Positions 46,913 through 55,231 of a stretch of DNA of 64,000 nt are shown in pieces. Every line of letters begins with the position of its first letter. Positions within the stretch are counted from its first letter, which is position 1. The translations under genes were made by a program, and so were the position numbers. This DNA comes from Muribaculaceae bacterium (GTDB taxonomy: Bacteria > Bacteroidota > Bacteroidia > Bacteroidales > Muribaculaceae): NCBI GenBank assembly GCA_022509085.1, contig JAFLTW010000001.1, positions 186,001-250,000 of the forward strand. Direction: 5' to 3'. The notes under the pieces were generated by a model that had not been told where the DNA came from, did no database searches, and saw only the letters and a program-made list of their open reading frames with translations.

Positions 46913-49270
46913 GTGGGGGGGACGATAAAAAAATATGACTGGAAGAGGTGGCTCGCTGGGCTGCTTCTTTTAGTGGTTTTATCCACCTCCACAATCTCGG
47001 CAAAAAAGACAGAACCGGAAGAGGAAAAGGTGACCGAACTACAGGAGGTAATCATAAAACCCAAGCGCCAGAAATACAGGAAAAAAGGAAATCCCGCATA
47101 CGAACTGATGCAGGAGATCCGAAAGAAAGCAACCGCTTACAATCCCTCCCGACAGCCTGATTACAGCTACGACTACTATGAAAAGATAATGCTCGGAATG
47201 AACGACATGATGGTAGACACGGCCTCACGTTCACTCGGCTTTCTGAGCAAATACCAGACGATAGCCTACAACACGGGGAAACCCGTAGTGTTGCTTACAC
47301 TAAAGGAGAGAATCGGCACTAACGTAAAATCAAGTGACCCCCAGACAGAGAAAGACATAATTCGAGGGCGGAAAAACGCCGGGATCGATGAAGCCTTCAA
47401 CCAGAAGAACTTCAACAAGATACTTGAGGACGTGCTTCGCGAGGTAGACATCTACTCCAACGACATCACCCTGATGCAGCAGAAATTCGTATCTCCGCTG
47501 GGACGCCTCGCCGGCGACTACTACCATTACTTCATCAACGATACCGTCTACCTTCCCGGCGACGACAGGAAATTCATAGAACTAAACTTCTCTCCCGTCA
47601 ACCCCGAATCCTTCAGTTTCAACGGACGCCTATATGTCGCCGACGACTCCACAAGGTTTATCAAAAAAGTGGTGATGAGAGTGCCACGAGCAATTAATCT
47701 CAACTACATTGACAACATCTTCATAACCCAAGACTTCGTGCAGGACTCGCTGGGCAACCGCCACAAGACCCTCGACGACATGGCTCTCGAGATAAGGGTA
47801 ATCCCCGGCACACCCTCTTTCTACGGGAGACGGTCAACTTCGAGAGACAACTTCAGCTATGAAACCCGCAGTGACCTCAAGGATTACCTCAAGACATTGG
47901 GCAGTCAGATAGAGATAGAGGAGACAGACGACCAGAAAAACCGGCTGCTCTGGAACCAGATGCGTCTCGTTCCCCTCAGTATCGCAGAAAAAAACCTCGC
48001 AGGCATACACGACGAAATAAAAAAACGGCCACTCTTCTATTGGGCAGAGAAAATAGTGATGATAGTGGCCAAGGGATATATCGGCACCGGATGGAAAGGG
48101 GCACCGAGCAAATTCGACCTGGGCCCCGTAAACACCCTCATATCCTACAATACCCTCGAAGGAGTGAGGCTGAGAGCCGGAGGCATGACCACCGCCCAAC
48201 TGTCGCGCCACGTCTTCGGACGCGGCTACGGAGCCTACGGCTTCCGCGACCACCGCTGGAAATATATGATAGAGGCCGAATACTCCTTCACCCCGAAAAA
48301 GATACATGCCAAGGAATTCCCGATACACTCCCTGAGAGCGACACATCAATATGACGTGGACATGCTCGGGCAACACTACCTCTTTACCAACCCCGACAAT
48401 GTGTTCCTCTCCTGGAAAAGGAAGGAGAGCGATCTTGCCACCTACCGGAGGCATACAACCTTCGAATACACCCTTGAGCTTCGGAACAATTTCTCCGTAA
48501 ACGCCGGATTCCGACACCAGATACAGTTCGCATCCAGGTTCGTACCCTTCGTTGACGGGCGCGATATACGCTACGGCCACTATGCACAGTCATCCTTCTT
48601 CATAAAACTCCGTTATGCTCCGGGCGAAGTGTTTGTGGAGGGAAGAAATGTCAGGTTGCCCGTAAACATGGACGCACCCGTGATACAGCTTACCCACGAA
48701 TACGGGCCCAAGGGATTTCTGGGAAGCCGCTTCACACTCAATTATACGGAACTCTCGTTTCAGAAACGCTTCTGGTTCTCTTCATTCGGCTTCACCGACA
48801 TCATTCTGAAGGGTGGAAAGATATGGAGCAGGGTAGAATATCCCGCACTGCTTTGGCCCAACGCCAACCTGTCCTATACCATCCAGCCCGAAAGCTACTC
48901 TCTGATGAATCCCATGGAATTCGCCAACGACTGGTATGGAGCACTCGACCTCACATATTGGCTGAACGGACTGATCCTTAACCGCATTCCTCTCGTAAAC
49001 AAAGCCAAGCTTCGCGAGATCTTCACCTTCAAGCTCCTGATGGGAGGACTTACAAAAAAGAACAACCCCGCCGACAATGAGGAACTCTTCAGATTTCCTT
49101 ACGACTCCAACACCCATATCTTGAACCGCACTCCATATATGGAGATAGGGGTGGGGCTCGACAATATCCTGACCATACTGAGGGTAGATTATGTATGGCG
49201 GCTCACCTACCGTGACCTCCCGGGCATAGACCGCTCGGGACTGAGGGTGGCGCTTCACTTCTCCTTCTGA
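46913..49270 (+). CDS. DUF5686-family outer-membrane protein, GTG start
   Basis: This 785-residue protein has a signal peptide (LAGLLLLVVLSTSTISA). It opens into VTELQEVIIKPKRQKYRKKGNPAYELMQEI, typical of DUF5686, and continues as a large beta-barrel-like protein ending ALHFSF. Many family members carry an N-terminal carboxypeptidase-regulatory domain; this one does not. The only start in frame before the signal peptide is the GTG at 46913, 10 bases after the CYTH stop, which is in the same frame. The start is followed by a run of seven G, making this spot prone to indel or frameshift. Confidence 0.82.
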   Translation: MGGTIKKYDWKRWLAGLLLLVVLSTSTISAKKTEPEEEKVTELQEVIIKPKRQKYRKKGNPAYELMQEIRKKATAYNPSRQPDYSYDYYEKIMLGMNDMMVDTASRSLGFLSKYQTIAYNTGKPVVLLTLKERIGTNVKSSDPQTEKDIIRGRKNAGIDEAFNQKNFNKILEDVLREVDIYSNDITLMQQKFVSPLGRLAGDYYHYFINDTVYLPGDDRKFIELNFSPVNPESFSFNGRLYVADDSTRFIKKVVMRVPRAINLNYIDNIFITQDFVQDSLGNRHKTLDDMALEIRVIPGTPSFYGRRSTSRDNFSYETRSDLKDYLKTLGSQIEIEETDDQKNRLLWNQMRLVPLSIAEKNLAGIHDEIKKRPLFYWAEKIVMIVAKGYIGTGWKGAPSKFDLGPVNTLISYNTLEGVRLRAGGMTTAQLSRHVFGRGYGAYGFRDHRWKYMIEAEYSFTPKKIHAKEFPIHSLRATHQYDVDMLGQHYLFTNPDNVFLSWKRKESDLATYRRHTTFEYTLELRNNFSVNAGFRHQIQFASRFVPFVDGRDIRYGHYAQSSFFIKLRYAPGEVFVEGRNVRLPVNMDAPVIQLTHEYGPKGFLGSRFTLNYTELSFQKRFWFSSFGFTDIILKGGKIWSRVEYPALLWPNANLSYTIQPESYSLMNPMEFANDWYGALDLTYWLNGLILNRIPLVNKAKLREIFTFKLLMGGLTKKNNPADNEELFRFPYDSNTHILNRTPYMEIGVGLDNILTILRVDYVWRLTYRDLPGIDRSGLRVALHFSF

Positions 49271-50990: not shown

Positions 50991-50998
50991 TAATTTTG
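50991..50998 (+). promoter_or_regulatory. -7 element for the HU operon
   Basis: An exact TAATTTTG, 22 bases before the ATG of the HU gene. No TTTG at the normal distance; the nearest is about 30 bases upstream. Confidence 0.45.
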
Positions 50999-51020
50999 CA
51001 GTTTGAAACCCCTACCGAAT

Positions 51021-51299
51021 ATGGATCATAAAACCTTCATTAAGAAAGTAAGCGACAGCTCGGGGCTCGACAGGGACACCTGCGAGGCCTTGCTCGAGTC
51101 GCTCGTAACCGTTCTCGCAGACACCATTTCGGAGGGAGAAAGCATTTCTATACCCTCATTCGGGAACTTTGAGTCCAGGAAACGCAAGGAGCGCATCATG
51201 AGTCACCCCTCGCTGAAGGGAAGGCGACTGCTCGTGCCCCCGAAACTGGTGATAAACTTCAAACCTTCCACGTTACTGAGGAATAAAATAAACGAGTGA
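51021..51299 (+). CDS. HU-family DNA-binding protein
   Basis: This 92-residue HU/IHF-fold protein has helix segments (TFIKKVSDSSGLDRDTCEALLESLVTVL), the hinge FGNFESRKRKER and a DNA-arm region RRLLVPPKLVINFKPS. A TTG at 51003 is possible but lies next to the promoter, so the ATG at 51021 is used. It stands directly before a second gene whose N-terminus is also an HU domain, and the pair is probably cotranscribed. Confidence 0.88.
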   Translation: MDHKTFIKKVSDSSGLDRDTCEALLESLVTVLADTISEGESISIPSFGNFESRKRKERIMSHPSLKGRRLLVPPKLVINFKPSTLLRNKINE

Positions 51300-51304
51300 T
51301 AACG

Positions 51305-52747
51305 ATGGGAAAAAAGATATTGCTCCCCCAGCTCGTAAGCATGCTGTCTTCTTCGTCAGGAATGGCTAAGAAGAGCAGCGAGACTTTCATCAAGACATTC
51401 TTCGCAACGCTTACTGATGTTCTCGCAGAGCACGAAAACGTTAGGATAAAAGGATTCGGCACATTCAAGGTAAACAGGGTTGAGGCCCGAAAGAGCGTCA
51501 ATGTCTCTACCGGAGAAGAGATGCAGATACCGGCCCACTACAAGGTGGTGTTTCTACCCGACAAGACAATCTCTGAAAAGATAAACCGTGAATTCTCATG
51601 GTTTGAGATAGTCGAGATAGCCGGACCGCCGAAGACCGCCGAACTCACGCCTGAAGAAGAGGAACGGAGCGAACACCTGGGAGAAGAGATTGAAAAAGAC
51701 TTCGGGGAGATAGAACCTGTGGAGCCCTTCGGACCAATAGATCCGGACGACCCCGAACCGGGAGAACCCATTCCGGAAGACAATGCGGCACGAGAGGATG
51801 ACTCGCCGGTGCCCAAGGTGACGATAGTGCCTCCATATCAGGCTCCTCCGCCTGTGATGGAGACACCGGTAGCCACGGCTACACAAAGCGTAACGACTCC
51901 CGACCACGAATTCGACCCCTATAAATTGGACGCACCCAAATCCCTTGACCCTTTAGCCGCCAATCCCGATTCCCCTTACGTTACACGCGAAGAGCTCGCG
52001 GAATATATCACCAAGGCAGACATCAAGCCGCTGGTGAGAACCGTAAAGAAAGTAAAGGGAAATGTAGATAAGACAGAGAGAGCCGGGAAAATACGTTCAC
52101 GGGCCTACTTCATCTGGACATTGCTGATATGCGCCGCACTCATAACGGGCGGCTTTTTCCTTGTTTATTATCTCCTTGAGAAAAAGATAACCGGCAACAA
52201 CCCGGAACAAGTGGACCAGACTCCCGGAAGCAACAATGCAGAAGAAGACACGGAAGTGGTGAACGTAAAACTCGAAAACCACGACTTTATAGAGGCAGAG
52301 ATCACAGCGGATCCCGACATGGAGCCGGAACGGGAAGAGGAGATGCCGCATAATGCCGCAGGCATACAGGCCAAAACACAGACCGGGTCCGCACCAAAGT
52401 CAACCTCGACAAGCACCGCATCAACGGCCACAACTGCATCAACTGCATCATCGACATCCTCGTCATCATCGACACCCTCGACATCCTCCGACATCAAGGC
52501 TATGGACAAAGTGACCTCCACAAGATACCTCACCACCATGGCCAAAGAACATTACGGCAACTATAATCTCTGGCCCTATATCTATCTTGAGAACGAAGCT
52601 AAGCTCGGTCATCCCGACCGAATAAAGCCGGGCACAGTAATTGCAATACCCGATATAGCCAAATATGGCATCGATCCCACCAACCCAAAGGATATTGAGA
52701 AAGCCAAGAGGTTGAGTGTGGAAATTTACCAGAAATACAGCAACTAA
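51305..52747 (+). CDS. HU domain-transmembrane-LysM protein, candidate DNA-to-cell-wall tether
   Basis: This 480-residue protein has an unusual domain order. Residues 1-95 are an HU/IHF-like domain (IKGFGTFKVNRVEARKSVN, then PAHYKVVFLPDKTISEKI). Residues 100-225 are an acidic, Pro-rich linker. About 267-291 is one transmembrane helix (FIWTLLICAALITGGFFLVYYLL) preceded by basic residues, predicting N-in topology. About 362-396 is a Ser/Thr linker. Residues 402-450 form a LysM-like module (LTTMAKEHYGNYNLWPYIYLEN and PGTVIAIPD). The DNA-binding part would be cytoplasmic and the peptidoglycan-binding part periplasmic. A GTG at 51296 overlapping the HU stop is an alternative start. The tether role is inference. 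Confidence 0.85.
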   Translation: MGKKILLPQLVSMLSSSSGMAKKSSETFIKTFFATLTDVLAEHENVRIKGFGTFKVNRVEARKSVNVSTGEEMQIPAHYKVVFLPDKTISEKINREFSWFEIVEIAGPPKTAELTPEEEERSEHLGEEIEKDFGEIEPVEPFGPIDPDDPEPGEPIPEDNAAREDDSPVPKVTIVPPYQAPPPVMETPVATATQSVTTPDHEFDPYKLDAPKSLDPLAANPDSPYVTREELAEYITKADIKPLVRTVKKVKGNVDKTERAGKIRSRAYFIWTLLICAALITGGFFLVYYLLEKKITGNNPEQVDQTPGSNNAEEDTEVVNVKLENHDFIEAEITADPDMEPEREEEMPHNAAGIQAKTQTGSAPKSTSTSTASTATTASTASSTSSSSSTPSTSSDIKAMDKVTSTRYLTTMAKEHYGNYNLWPYIYLENEAKLGHPDRIKPGTVIAIPDIAKYGIDPTNPKDIEKAKRLSVEIYQKYSN

Positions 52748-52821: not shown

Positions 52822-54834
52822 ATGACGAACAAGACTACAAGAAGACTGGCAACAGCATTTATCGGGGCGTTTGCTTTTATGGCGGCCTATGCCCACAACG
52901 ACTCCATTCCCGACTTCGACGACTTCGAGCTTGACGAGGTGGTGGTGAAGGCAAAAGGCACAAGCAAGATCAACTACGCCGCCACCAACACCGAACTCAT
53001 AACTGCGGTAGAGCTTACAAGAGCCGCCTGCTGCAGCCTCGGCGAGAGTTTCAGCACCAATCCATCGGTAGACGTAAGCTATTCCGATGCAGCTACCGGA
53101 GCAAAACAGATTAAGCTCCTCGGCTTGTCGGGAAGCTACGTGCAGATGCTCACGGAAAACGTTCCAAACTTCCGTGGAGTGTCCTCGCCCTATGCACTCG
53201 ACTTCATCCCGGGGCCGTGGATACAGTCGATCCAGGTGTCGAAAGGGAGCAGCAGCGTAAAAAACGGTTTCGAATCCGTAACGGGGCAAATCAACGTGGA
53301 GCTGAAAAAGCCCCAACTCGACAACGCCCTCAACCTTAACGCCTATTTTGACACCGACGGCAAACTGGAATTCAATGCATCCGGCAACCTGCATCTCGGC
53401 AAGAAATGGAGCGGCGCATTGCTGCTGCATGGCGCCAACACCTTCTGGACCCACGACGGAGACGACGACGGTTTCATAGACATGCCCAAACTGAAACGCG
53501 CCTCACTTCTAAACCGATGGGCTTACCTCGGAGAAAGATACGTGTTTCAGATCTCAGCCAAGGGTTTGCTGGAAAGGAGACAGGCCGGCCAGATAGGGCA
53601 TCCTAGCCATAAGTTGACTAATCCGTATGTTATCAATGTGGAGAACAACCGACTGGAGCTTTTCACCAAAAACGCCTTCATCATCGACAAGGAAAACGAC
53701 GCCAACTTGGCGTTGATACTTTCCGGCAATGTGCACGACCTTGACTCTAAATTCGGGTACAAGGCCTATAAGGCTCTTCAGTATGACGCATATGCATCTC
53801 TGATGTTCGAGCGCAAATGGGCCGAGAGACATTCACTGAGCACAGGCGCCAGCCTGCAGTATGACAACTATCGCCAGCATTACCGTACGATGCAGAGCGA
53901 TGCCTCCCCGCTACTTCGGGACTACACTCACGAGGCCGTAACCGGACTTTATGCCCAATACACATATAACCACGATGAAAAGGTTATAGCCATGGGAGGA
54001 ATGAGATATGACTACAGTTCTCTCTATGGCAGTTTCGTGACTCCAAGGTTACACCTAAGATACAATCCCACAGAGGCATGGTCGATTCATGCATCGGCCG
54101 GGATGGGTAGACGTTCGCCGCATCCCCTTGCAGAATTCAGCTACCTCTTCGCCTCGTCGCGCCGCTTCATAATGCCCGCTGAACTCAGGATGGAGACAGG
54201 AGCCAACACCGGAGGCGGCGTAACCTGGAGTCCGGAGTCAGGGGAGAGGAATCTCAGAATGTCGGCAGAATATTACTACACCCATTTCTTCCACCAGATG
54301 AACGCTGATTTGGAAAACCCGCACGAAGTGGCGATTCTTACAGACACAAAAGGCTATAGCCACAACTTTCAGATCGAGATGTCGGTGGATCCCATCGAGG
54401 ATATGACGGTTACGGCAGCCTACAGATATATCGACGTAAAAGTCGACTATGGCCGTGGATACCAGACCAAACCATTGACATCTCATCACCGAGGGCTCTT
54501 CAGCGTTGGATATTCTCCCTTTATGGGGAAATGGCAATTCGACGCCACACTCAGCATAAATGGCGGAGGTGTAATGCCAACTCCATACAGGATGGCCGAC
54601 GGAGAAATGTCGTGGAGCGAGCGGTTTCCTACATACTGCACGCTAAATCTGCAGGTTACCCGCAACTTCCGCCACTGGAGCATCTACATTGGGGGAGAAA
54701 ACCTCACAAACTACAGGCAGAAACACCCAATAATCGATGCCGGAAATCCATGGAGCAAGGATTTTGACGCCACTATGGTGTGGGGTCCGCTTTCAGGAGC
54801 CATGGGATACATAGGTGTGAGAATCAATATATGA
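52822..54834 (+). CDS. TonB-dependent outer-membrane receptor, possibly for a soft metal
   Basis: This 670-residue receptor has an export signal, a TonB-box-like stretch (DEVVVKAKGT near residue 39), a plug domain (residues about 55-160 with IQSIQVSKGSSSVKNGFESVTGQI) and a 22-strand-type barrel. No carboxypeptidase-regulatory extension and no SusD partner are seen, so it is not a glycan-utilisation SusC. Two adjacent Cys (70-71) lie in the plug. The next gene encodes an exported HMA metallochaperone-like protein, which points to copper or a similar soft metal; this is inference. Confidence 0.87.
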   Translation: MTNKTTRRLATAFIGAFAFMAAYAHNDSIPDFDDFELDEVVVKAKGTSKINYAATNTELITAVELTRAACCSLGESFSTNPSVDVSYSDAATGAKQIKLLGLSGSYVQMLTENVPNFRGVSSPYALDFIPGPWIQSIQVSKGSSSVKNGFESVTGQINVELKKPQLDNALNLNAYFDTDGKLEFNASGNLHLGKKWSGALLLHGANTFWTHDGDDDGFIDMPKLKRASLLNRWAYLGERYVFQISAKGLLERRQAGQIGHPSHKLTNPYVINVENNRLELFTKNAFIIDKENDANLALILSGNVHDLDSKFGYKAYKALQYDAYASLMFERKWAERHSLSTGASLQYDNYRQHYRTMQSDASPLLRDYTHEAVTGLYAQYTYNHDEKVIAMGGMRYDYSSLYGSFVTPRLHLRYNPTEAWSIHASAGMGRRSPHPLAEFSYLFASSRRFIMPAELRMETGANTGGGVTWSPESGERNLRMSAEYYYTHFFHQMNADLENPHEVAILTDTKGYSHNFQIEMSVDPIEDMTVTAAYRYIDVKVDYGRGYQTKPLTSHHRGLFSVGYSPFMGKWQFDATLSINGGGVMPTPYRMADGEMSWSERFPTYCTLNLQVTRNFRHWSIYIGGENLTNYRQKHPIIDAGNPWSKDFDATMVWGPLSGAMGYIGVRINI

Positions 54835-54895
54835 AAAGGGGAGAGGGATACGTTACATAAAAAGAATAATAATACAAAAAAATAAATCGAGAAAA

Positions 54896-55231
54896 ATGAA
54901 AAAAATATTAGTTTTGGCAGCATTTGCCTTCTTCCTCATAAACGCTAATGCCGAAAAGAAGACCGTAAACTTCACGGTAGAACCTGCATTGGTTTGCCAC
55001 AACTGTGAGGCTAAGGTAAAAGACAACCTTCGCTTTGAGAAGGGAGTGAAAGCCGTAAAACCTTCTGCAGAGAAGGGGATAGTGGAAGTGACCTTCGACG
55101 ACAAGAAGACCGACGTAAGCCATCTTCAGGAGGGCTTCCGTAAGATCGGCTATGAGGCTACACCTGTAGAAGAGGGCCCTGAGGTATGTCACGAGCCGAC
55201 GACTGCCCCTTGCTGTAATTCAAAAAAGTAA
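54896..55231 (+). CDS. Exported heavy-metal-associated (HMA) domain protein
   Basis: This 111-residue protein has a signal peptide (KKILVLAAFAFFLINANA). It has one HMA fold with the metal-binding CHNC at residues 34-37 (family CxxC in a beta-alpha-beta-beta-alpha-beta core). A His/Cys tail (CHEPTTAPCCNSKK) adds further possible ligands. HMA domains bind Cu(I) and related ions, and a periplasmic one beside a TonB receptor suggests uptake rather than efflux. It starts 62 bases after the receptor. Confidence 0.85.
   Translation: MKKILVLAAFAFFLINANAEKKTVNFTVEPALVCHNCEAKVKDNLRFEKGVKAVKPSAEKGIVEVTFDDKKTDVSHLQEGFRKIGYEATPVEEGPEVCHEPTTAPCCNSKK

Follow-up and report, generated by a model that had tools for sequence, protein, structure and literature searches.

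The window analysed here (the whole stretch of DNA, 64,000 nucleotides) encodes a protein, designated T, whose single chain carries an HU domain at the N-terminus, one membrane-spanning helix, and a LysM-type fold at the C-terminus, and directly upstream of it a small HU protein, designated P, that almost always accompanies T in gut members of its order, the Bacteroidales. We propose that P and T would form an HU/IHF-like heterodimer fixed at the cytoplasmic face of the inner membrane, in which P would provide the stronger DNA grip via its basic, Pro-tipped arm, and T would provide a second, Val-tipped arm, a long acidic tether, and one membrane helix, its periplasmic LysM-fold module docking to the cell wall or to a wall-associated protein. 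Bent chromosomal DNA would in this manner be pinned to the envelope of the window organism, and the role of the pair may lie in nucleoid positioning or segregation; in lineages that have lost both DNA grips, the same frame would serve another job. We assign the whole DNA-membrane-wall anchor model a probability of roughly 0.45.

T is an intact open reading frame, from the ATG at 51305 to the stop ending at 52747, and the reverse strand of this stretch contains several stops (one frame translated). The reading frame of P is also open from a TTG at 51003, and the ATG at 51021 is the more likely start. The features of the locus are as follows.

50991..50998, + strand: possible Bacteroidetes −7 promoter box (TAnnTTTG), weak, from a pattern scan; 22 bases before the ATG at 51021
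51021..51299, + strand: P, small HU partner (92 aa), its beta-arm Pro-tipped and net positive (PF00216, E 1.2e-18)
51305..52747, + strand: T, HU-membrane helix-LysM-fold protein of 480 aa, beginning 5 bases past the P stop
51329..51586, + strand: HU domain of T, residues 9–94 (PF00216, E 4.5e-23; model and Foldseek)
51479..51532, + strand: beta-arm of T, residues 59–76, from alignment to a canonical HU of the same genome
51503–51505, + strand: arm tip of T, Val67, at the position of the intercalating Pro of canonical HU
51617..52084, + strand: acidic, Pro-rich linker of T, residues 105–260, probably disordered and predicted to be cytoplasmic (low pLDDT; unconserved)
52109..52165, + strand: single membrane helix of T, hydrophobic core residues 269–287, with basic residues on the N-side
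52202..52498, + strand: acidic, then Ser/Thr-rich linker of T, residues 300–398, predicted to be periplasmic (low pLDDT)
52499..52654, + strand: LysM-type fold of T, Kbp/YgaU-like, residues 399–450 (model and sequence matches)
52685..52732, + strand: helix after the LysM fold of T, residues 461–476, aligned in most family relatives

TAnnTTTG is the consensus of the −7 element of Bacteroidetes promoters, and no TTTG was found at the scanned spacing from the candidate box upstream of P.

The HU domain of T scored 81.8 bits against PF00216 (cut-off 22.4), and the same Pfam entry matched all 30 members of the T family alignment (A2). In the AlphaFold model, which was built from a 37-sequence alignment, residues 11–90 formed helices and a beta-arm with pLDDT block means of 92–97, and among the best 50 rows shown of a Foldseek search of the PDB, nearly all were HU/IHF chains, the rest being viral or other HU-type proteins. 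The model placed the membrane helix at residues 261–296, and over most of both linkers the pLDDT was about 55 or lower.

The C-terminal part of the model adopted a beta-alpha-alpha-beta fold at residues 399–448, with pLDDT block means of 93–98 over residues 401–480. The LysM part of NCBIfam PRK11198 matched T residues 392–450 with an E-value of 1.8e-6 (28.5 bits vs a cut-off of 134), and PDB chain 7pvc (Kbp) was matched both by the family profile (E 2.1e-9) and by the window LysM domain alone (E 2.5e-5). In BFVD, Foldseek listed a phage LysM protein at rank 48, over 62 columns and with an E-value of 3.2e-3 (aligned range not printed). The Pfam LysM entry (PF01476) gave no match to the window domain at any E-value up to 1, matched only one of 30 T relatives (E 0.0097, short of the threshold), and did not return T in a profile search of its own genome. 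The assignment of a LysM fold is thus based on the alignment-based model, the sequence matches, and one BFVD row; a single-sequence model of the C-terminal piece gave a pLDDT of 50.6. SPOR was considered as the identity of this domain and rejected, as no Pfam SPOR match was found in the C-terminus of T and the model gave a LysM-type fold. By sequence, Kbp/YgaU is the closest solved relative of the fold, and the T module appears nearest to this type, which should not be presumed to bind the wall; Kbp is a named potassium-binding protein and, unlike T, has neither an HU domain nor a membrane helix. Kbp also carries a BON domain. That the outer end of T docks to the wall or to a wall protein is put forward as a putative step that we somewhat favour.

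The preliminary description had read an HU domain, a transmembrane helix, and a LysM-like module at residues 402–450 from the letters alone. All three parts were found again in the model and in the relatives, the HU domain also by Pfam, and the structure prediction it had proposed for the two ends of T gave an HU fold and a LysM-type fold, both at block-mean pLDDT above 90. The same architecture recurred in 19 family codes, and a chance or artefactual fusion as the origin of T was thereby ruled out. We regard the order HU, one membrane helix, C-terminal LysM-type fold as practically certain.

To define the family, a LysM-type hit at E <1e-6 was required of each T locus, so that the set cannot show how frequently the LysM end is lost. 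Of the 126 distinct loci, three gave no HU hit and were set aside: L041 begins near a contig end, L111 has HU and LysM on separate reading frames, and L156 has a broken reading frame. The 123 loci then read in detail, our own included, are not independent species samples; they come from 19 family codes of the order, where f1 was assigned by default (including the named loci L034–L043). The closest named relative is a Muribaculaceae MAG (L034), and the window is accordingly placed in that family. Some match was obtained in 98 of 99 genomes of the family sample, HU-only matches counted, and a broader profile matched 76 of 392 genomes of the order (39 of 205 genera) at E ≤1e-22, some of these matches spanning the HU end only or the LysM end only. 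No T was found outside the order in two class-wide samples: among 247 genomes searched at E 1e-15, ten matched, eight of them in the order and two outside it as HU-size reading frames of 114 and 124 aa, and among 296 genomes searched at E 1e-18, twenty matched, ten in the order and ten outside it as plain HU-size reading frames of 91–200 aa.

Some relatives have a longer HU-to-LysM stretch (L114, 726 aa; L113, 754 aa; L138, 657 aa). In two further f53 loci (L117 and L141, from G374 and G562), an armed HU domain, a helix, and an upstream P were present and the C-terminal profiles gave no hit; their C-terminal ends resemble a diverged LysM by eye, and they stand outside all counts.

Between the HU and LysM parts, exactly one membrane helix was present in 121 of the 123 T proteins, and two in the other two. 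The inner linker had a median length of 126 residues and the outer one of 73 (range 26–154). Lys and Arg residues were more numerous before the helix than after it in 95 of the 123, less numerous in 12, and tied in 16. By the positive-inside rule, this bias places the HU end inside and the LysM-fold end outside, which is the orientation that the preliminary description had claimed; a cytoplasmic HU end is very likely, and the LysM-fold end is predicted to be periplasmic. The opposite topology, in which the HU end would lie outside and bind extracellular DNA, agrees with the 12 proteins that have a Lys/Arg excess after the helix, but the 95 point the other way, and the HU domain begins about 10 residues from the N-terminus of T, leaving no room for a signal peptide. 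We consider this arrangement highly improbable.

In the first survey, 65 loci were read and a small HU gene lay upstream of T in 63; L020 and L041 lacked one, but both start too near the sequence end for an upstream HU to be visible. In the enlarged set, P was found for 121 of the 123 T loci (own included), and the partner was missing in L136 and L165. P was a separate gene directly upstream in 112 loci, overlapping T in 78, lying within 60 bases of it in 32 and further away in two, and in nine loci it was fused to T, forming the leading HU region of a reading frame that contains two. Eight of the nine fusions gave profile hits to both HU types and the ninth, L127, was assigned by its likeness to L100; together they fall into four family codes (f16, f26, f53, and f79). 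Since the pair is almost never separated and has become fused in several families, there is strong evidence for a single dimer, and we judge a heterodimer contact between the two HU domains to be likely, with good confidence, from these gene-level patterns.

Canonical HU grips DNA via two beta-arms, the tip proline of which intercalates. The pair in the window is armed: P has Pro at the tip, and T has kept its arm with Val67 in place of the intercalating Pro. P looks the better DNA binder of the two, because T has Val and not Pro at its arm tip. In L108 and L109, which belong to other families, T keeps the canonical Asn-Pro tip, so that Val at this position may be a derived state. All 12 copies read of a second HU paralogue (L217–L220, L222, L224, L225, L228–L230, L232, and L234) have Asn-Ile in place of Asn-Pro at the arm tip, and Val in T is therefore compatible with DNA binding. 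The window genome also carries an HU paralogue with the Asn-Ile tip (L046).

Across the 123 loci, the arm of T was kept in 80 and deleted in 43; two f26 fusions with a shortened arm of 14 residues were counted as armed. The tip residue of the 80 armed T proteins was Val in 67, Ile in eight, Pro in two, and another residue in three. When T was armed, the tip of P was Pro in 78 of 78 pairs and the mean charge of the P arm was +2.62. When T was arm-less, the P tip was Pro in only 11 of 43, and the mean P arm charge was −1.44 in the 36 separate pairs and +0.29 in the seven fused ones. The mean net charge of the T HU core was +0.36 in armed proteins, −5.36 in arm-less separate ones, and −4.14 in arm-less fused ones. 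As a control, the other HU proteins of 15 genomes with an arm-less T were examined (40 matches listed, 30 loci taken, 26 sequences recovered, one of which, a P, was excluded), and 24 of these 25 had a complete arm, while the remaining one is truncated by a stop.

Arm-less T proteins occurred in f1, f16, f53, f71, f79, and f95, and armed ones also occurred in f1, f16, f53, and f95, which indicates that the arm was probably lost more than once. In a quick tree of the T and P columns, in which long branches were flagged (the careful tree search being unfinished), there were eight arm changes, at least six of them forced by starred branches; a smaller first tree gave five, at least two of them forced. 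Over six independent contrasts of the quick tree, the P arm charge was concordant in a mean of 5.0 (median p of the sign test, 0.06) and the disappearance of Pro from the P tip in a mean of 4.1 (median p, 0.125), and neither ever went in the opposite direction, the phylogenetic power of these contrasts being modest. The two HU domains evolve as one unit. Their joint arm loss shows that they share one task, and this pattern suggests that the task includes a DNA grip in the armed lineages and not in the arm-less ones. The preliminary description had inferred from the adjacent HU gene that the two proteins work together and had proposed a survey of the domain order and the HU neighbour in other Bacteroidales; the survey recovered the domain order in 19 family codes and the partner in 121 of the 123 loci, and the near-constant partner, the natural fusions, and the co-loss of arms bear out the joint working.

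Repeated loss of the arm also means that a DNA grip is not the universal job of the family. The tether between nucleoid and wall that had been proposed from the sequence therefore stands in part: in the window, where the pair keeps its arms, a DNA-membrane-wall anchor is plausible, but as a universal role the tether fails, as 43 of the 123 T proteins are arm-less and their partners are mostly decayed.

The neighbourhood of the pair was read in 26 cases. The moxR gene followed T directly in nine of them and after one reading frame in one more, rimO preceded P or T in seven, and ftsY preceded rimO in six. The full order ftsY-rimO-P-T-moxR-DUF58-Bat was observed in L094, L096, L097 (with one extra reading frame), and L100 (with P fused), the gene identities being assigned by Pfam on one locus, L096. 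In these four loci, ftsY-rimO thus lies on one side of the HU pair and the moxR-DUF58-Bat (aerotolerance) operon on the other. In the window, this order is lost, and the pair is flanked by a beta-eliminating lyase, a TonB-dependent receptor, and an HMA protein. The TonB-dependent receptor and the small HMA (heavy-metal) protein follow one another at 52822–55231 and possibly constitute a metal uptake pair, and a DUF5686 protein is encoded at 46913–49270.

Several of these observations count against the anchor: the T HU core has a charge near zero in armed proteins, the window T has no Pro tip, the arm is missing in 43 of the 123, the PF01476 threshold was not reached, and the positive-inside bias fails in 12 and ties in 16. 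The arm loss in particular raises the alternative that the HU heterodimer is an envelope protein-protein platform, in which the HU fold would serve dimerization and the docking of other proteins and DNA binding would be an ancestral, fading property. The 43 arm-less T proteins with matching decay of P, the eight changes on the tree (at least six of them forced), and the position of moxR of the aerotolerance operon after T are as such a platform would have it. However, P is Pro-tipped with a positive mean arm charge in all 78 armed pairs, the window pair included, a pattern that would be difficult to account for if DNA binding were not under selection. DNA binding by the window pair is predicted as rather likely, and the platform is a less likely account of the pair than the anchor; for the arm-less lineages, we favour an envelope scaffold over an anchor.

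T could also be a membrane-bound regulator, the LysM end of which would sense wall fragments or another periplasmic signal and alter the bending of DNA by the HU pair at particular promoters. Its layout of a putative sensor, a helix, and a DNA-binding domain would suit this function, as would the long linkers on both sides of the membrane. The neighbouring genes, however, vary between the families and the window, the disordered linkers show no sign of signal transmission in the model, and HU domains have little sequence preference in DNA binding, which counts against such a regulator; we regard it as quite improbable.

The nearest known kind to T is the HU-CCDC81 (PF18174/PF18175)-helix-SPOR protein of Bacteroidetes, which has in common with T the HU domains, one strong hydrophobic helix, and a C-terminal domain of a wall-binding type. 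The two differ in that HU-CCDC81-SPOR has two fused, arm-poor HU domains and an outer SPOR domain, whereas P-T has canonical PF00216 domains, usually in two genes, and an outer LysM-type module. Membership of T in the HU-CCDC81 group was rejected, as T scored 13.2 and 14.9 bits against PF18174 and PF18175, the tandem that defines the group (cut-offs 26 and 35). The same genome encodes an HU-CCDC81_bac_1/bac_2-helix-SPOR protein of its own (L044:1210-2574; G000:C1 near 411794), and among 148 genomes of the order, 131 had a PF18174 match, which exceeded the cut-off in 126. The P-T pair is a second system beside HU-CCDC81-SPOR: it usually occupies two genes, its HU domains are canonical, and its outer module is of another kind. 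The HU-CCDC81-helix-SPOR proteins were reportedly described by Burroughs et al. 2017, where a chromosome-partition role is reported to have been proposed for the CCDC81-type HU proteins of Bacteroidetes.

When 21 HU-CCDC81 reading frames (our own and the 20 returned) were scored with the P and T profiles at a 3-bit floor, the partner profile scored higher on the first HU domain in all 21 and the T profile on the second in 20, the remaining one being without a hit; the rows were counted by eye from the printed output, and since the scores are low and arm-less profiles favour arm-poor domains, the result is suggestive only. We hypothesize that HU-CCDC81 and P-T may share an origin in a common fused pair. 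The wider proposal, that P-T is a heterodimeric chromatin anchor to the wall and that tandem HU-CCDC81 is an ancient fused, arm-poor version of P followed by T, is in our view improbable.

IHF alpha/beta and HU heterodimers resemble P-T as two-gene pairs of HU folds with beta-arms and gave the best structural matches of the T HU domain, but they are soluble and, unlike P-T, have neither a membrane helix nor a LysM-fold end. The layout of HubP/FimV was found in T only in part: the LysM-type end and the acidic stretch are present, but T has HU where HubP has TPR, and the LysM and cytoplasmic parts of HubP are in the opposite chain order to those of T. According to PMC8789113, the polar landmark HubP of Vibrio combines a LysM in the periplasm with a single helix and an acidic part in the cytoplasm, features shared with T, and it acts on the chromosome 1 origin via ParA1. 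The attachment described there is to ParA1 and not directly to DNA, and no HU domain is reported, so that HubP would be comparable in the way it works only; as a precedent, it indicates by analogy that a LysM-helix-acidic protein can help to hold a chromosome origin in place. No description of an HU-LysM protein was found in the open-licence library searched, where absence is no proof of novelty; in PMC10434189, the HU and LysM terms belong to separate genes in a table.

To our knowledge, nucleoid positioning and segregation in Bacteroidales are poorly known, and the P-T pair is a specific, deletable candidate for these functions, for which natural comparison sets exist in the armed pairs, the arm-less pairs, and the fusions. 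From the pair one can also derive a testable hypothesis on how the HU-CCDC81 proteins arose. CCDC81, a centrosome protein of eukaryotes, is said to have come from Bacteroidetes; if this holds and the fused-pair reading is true, eukaryotic CCDC81 would descend from the P-T machinery. If the anchor model is true, a DNA-to-wall tether would have been repeatedly turned into an envelope scaffold in bacteria.
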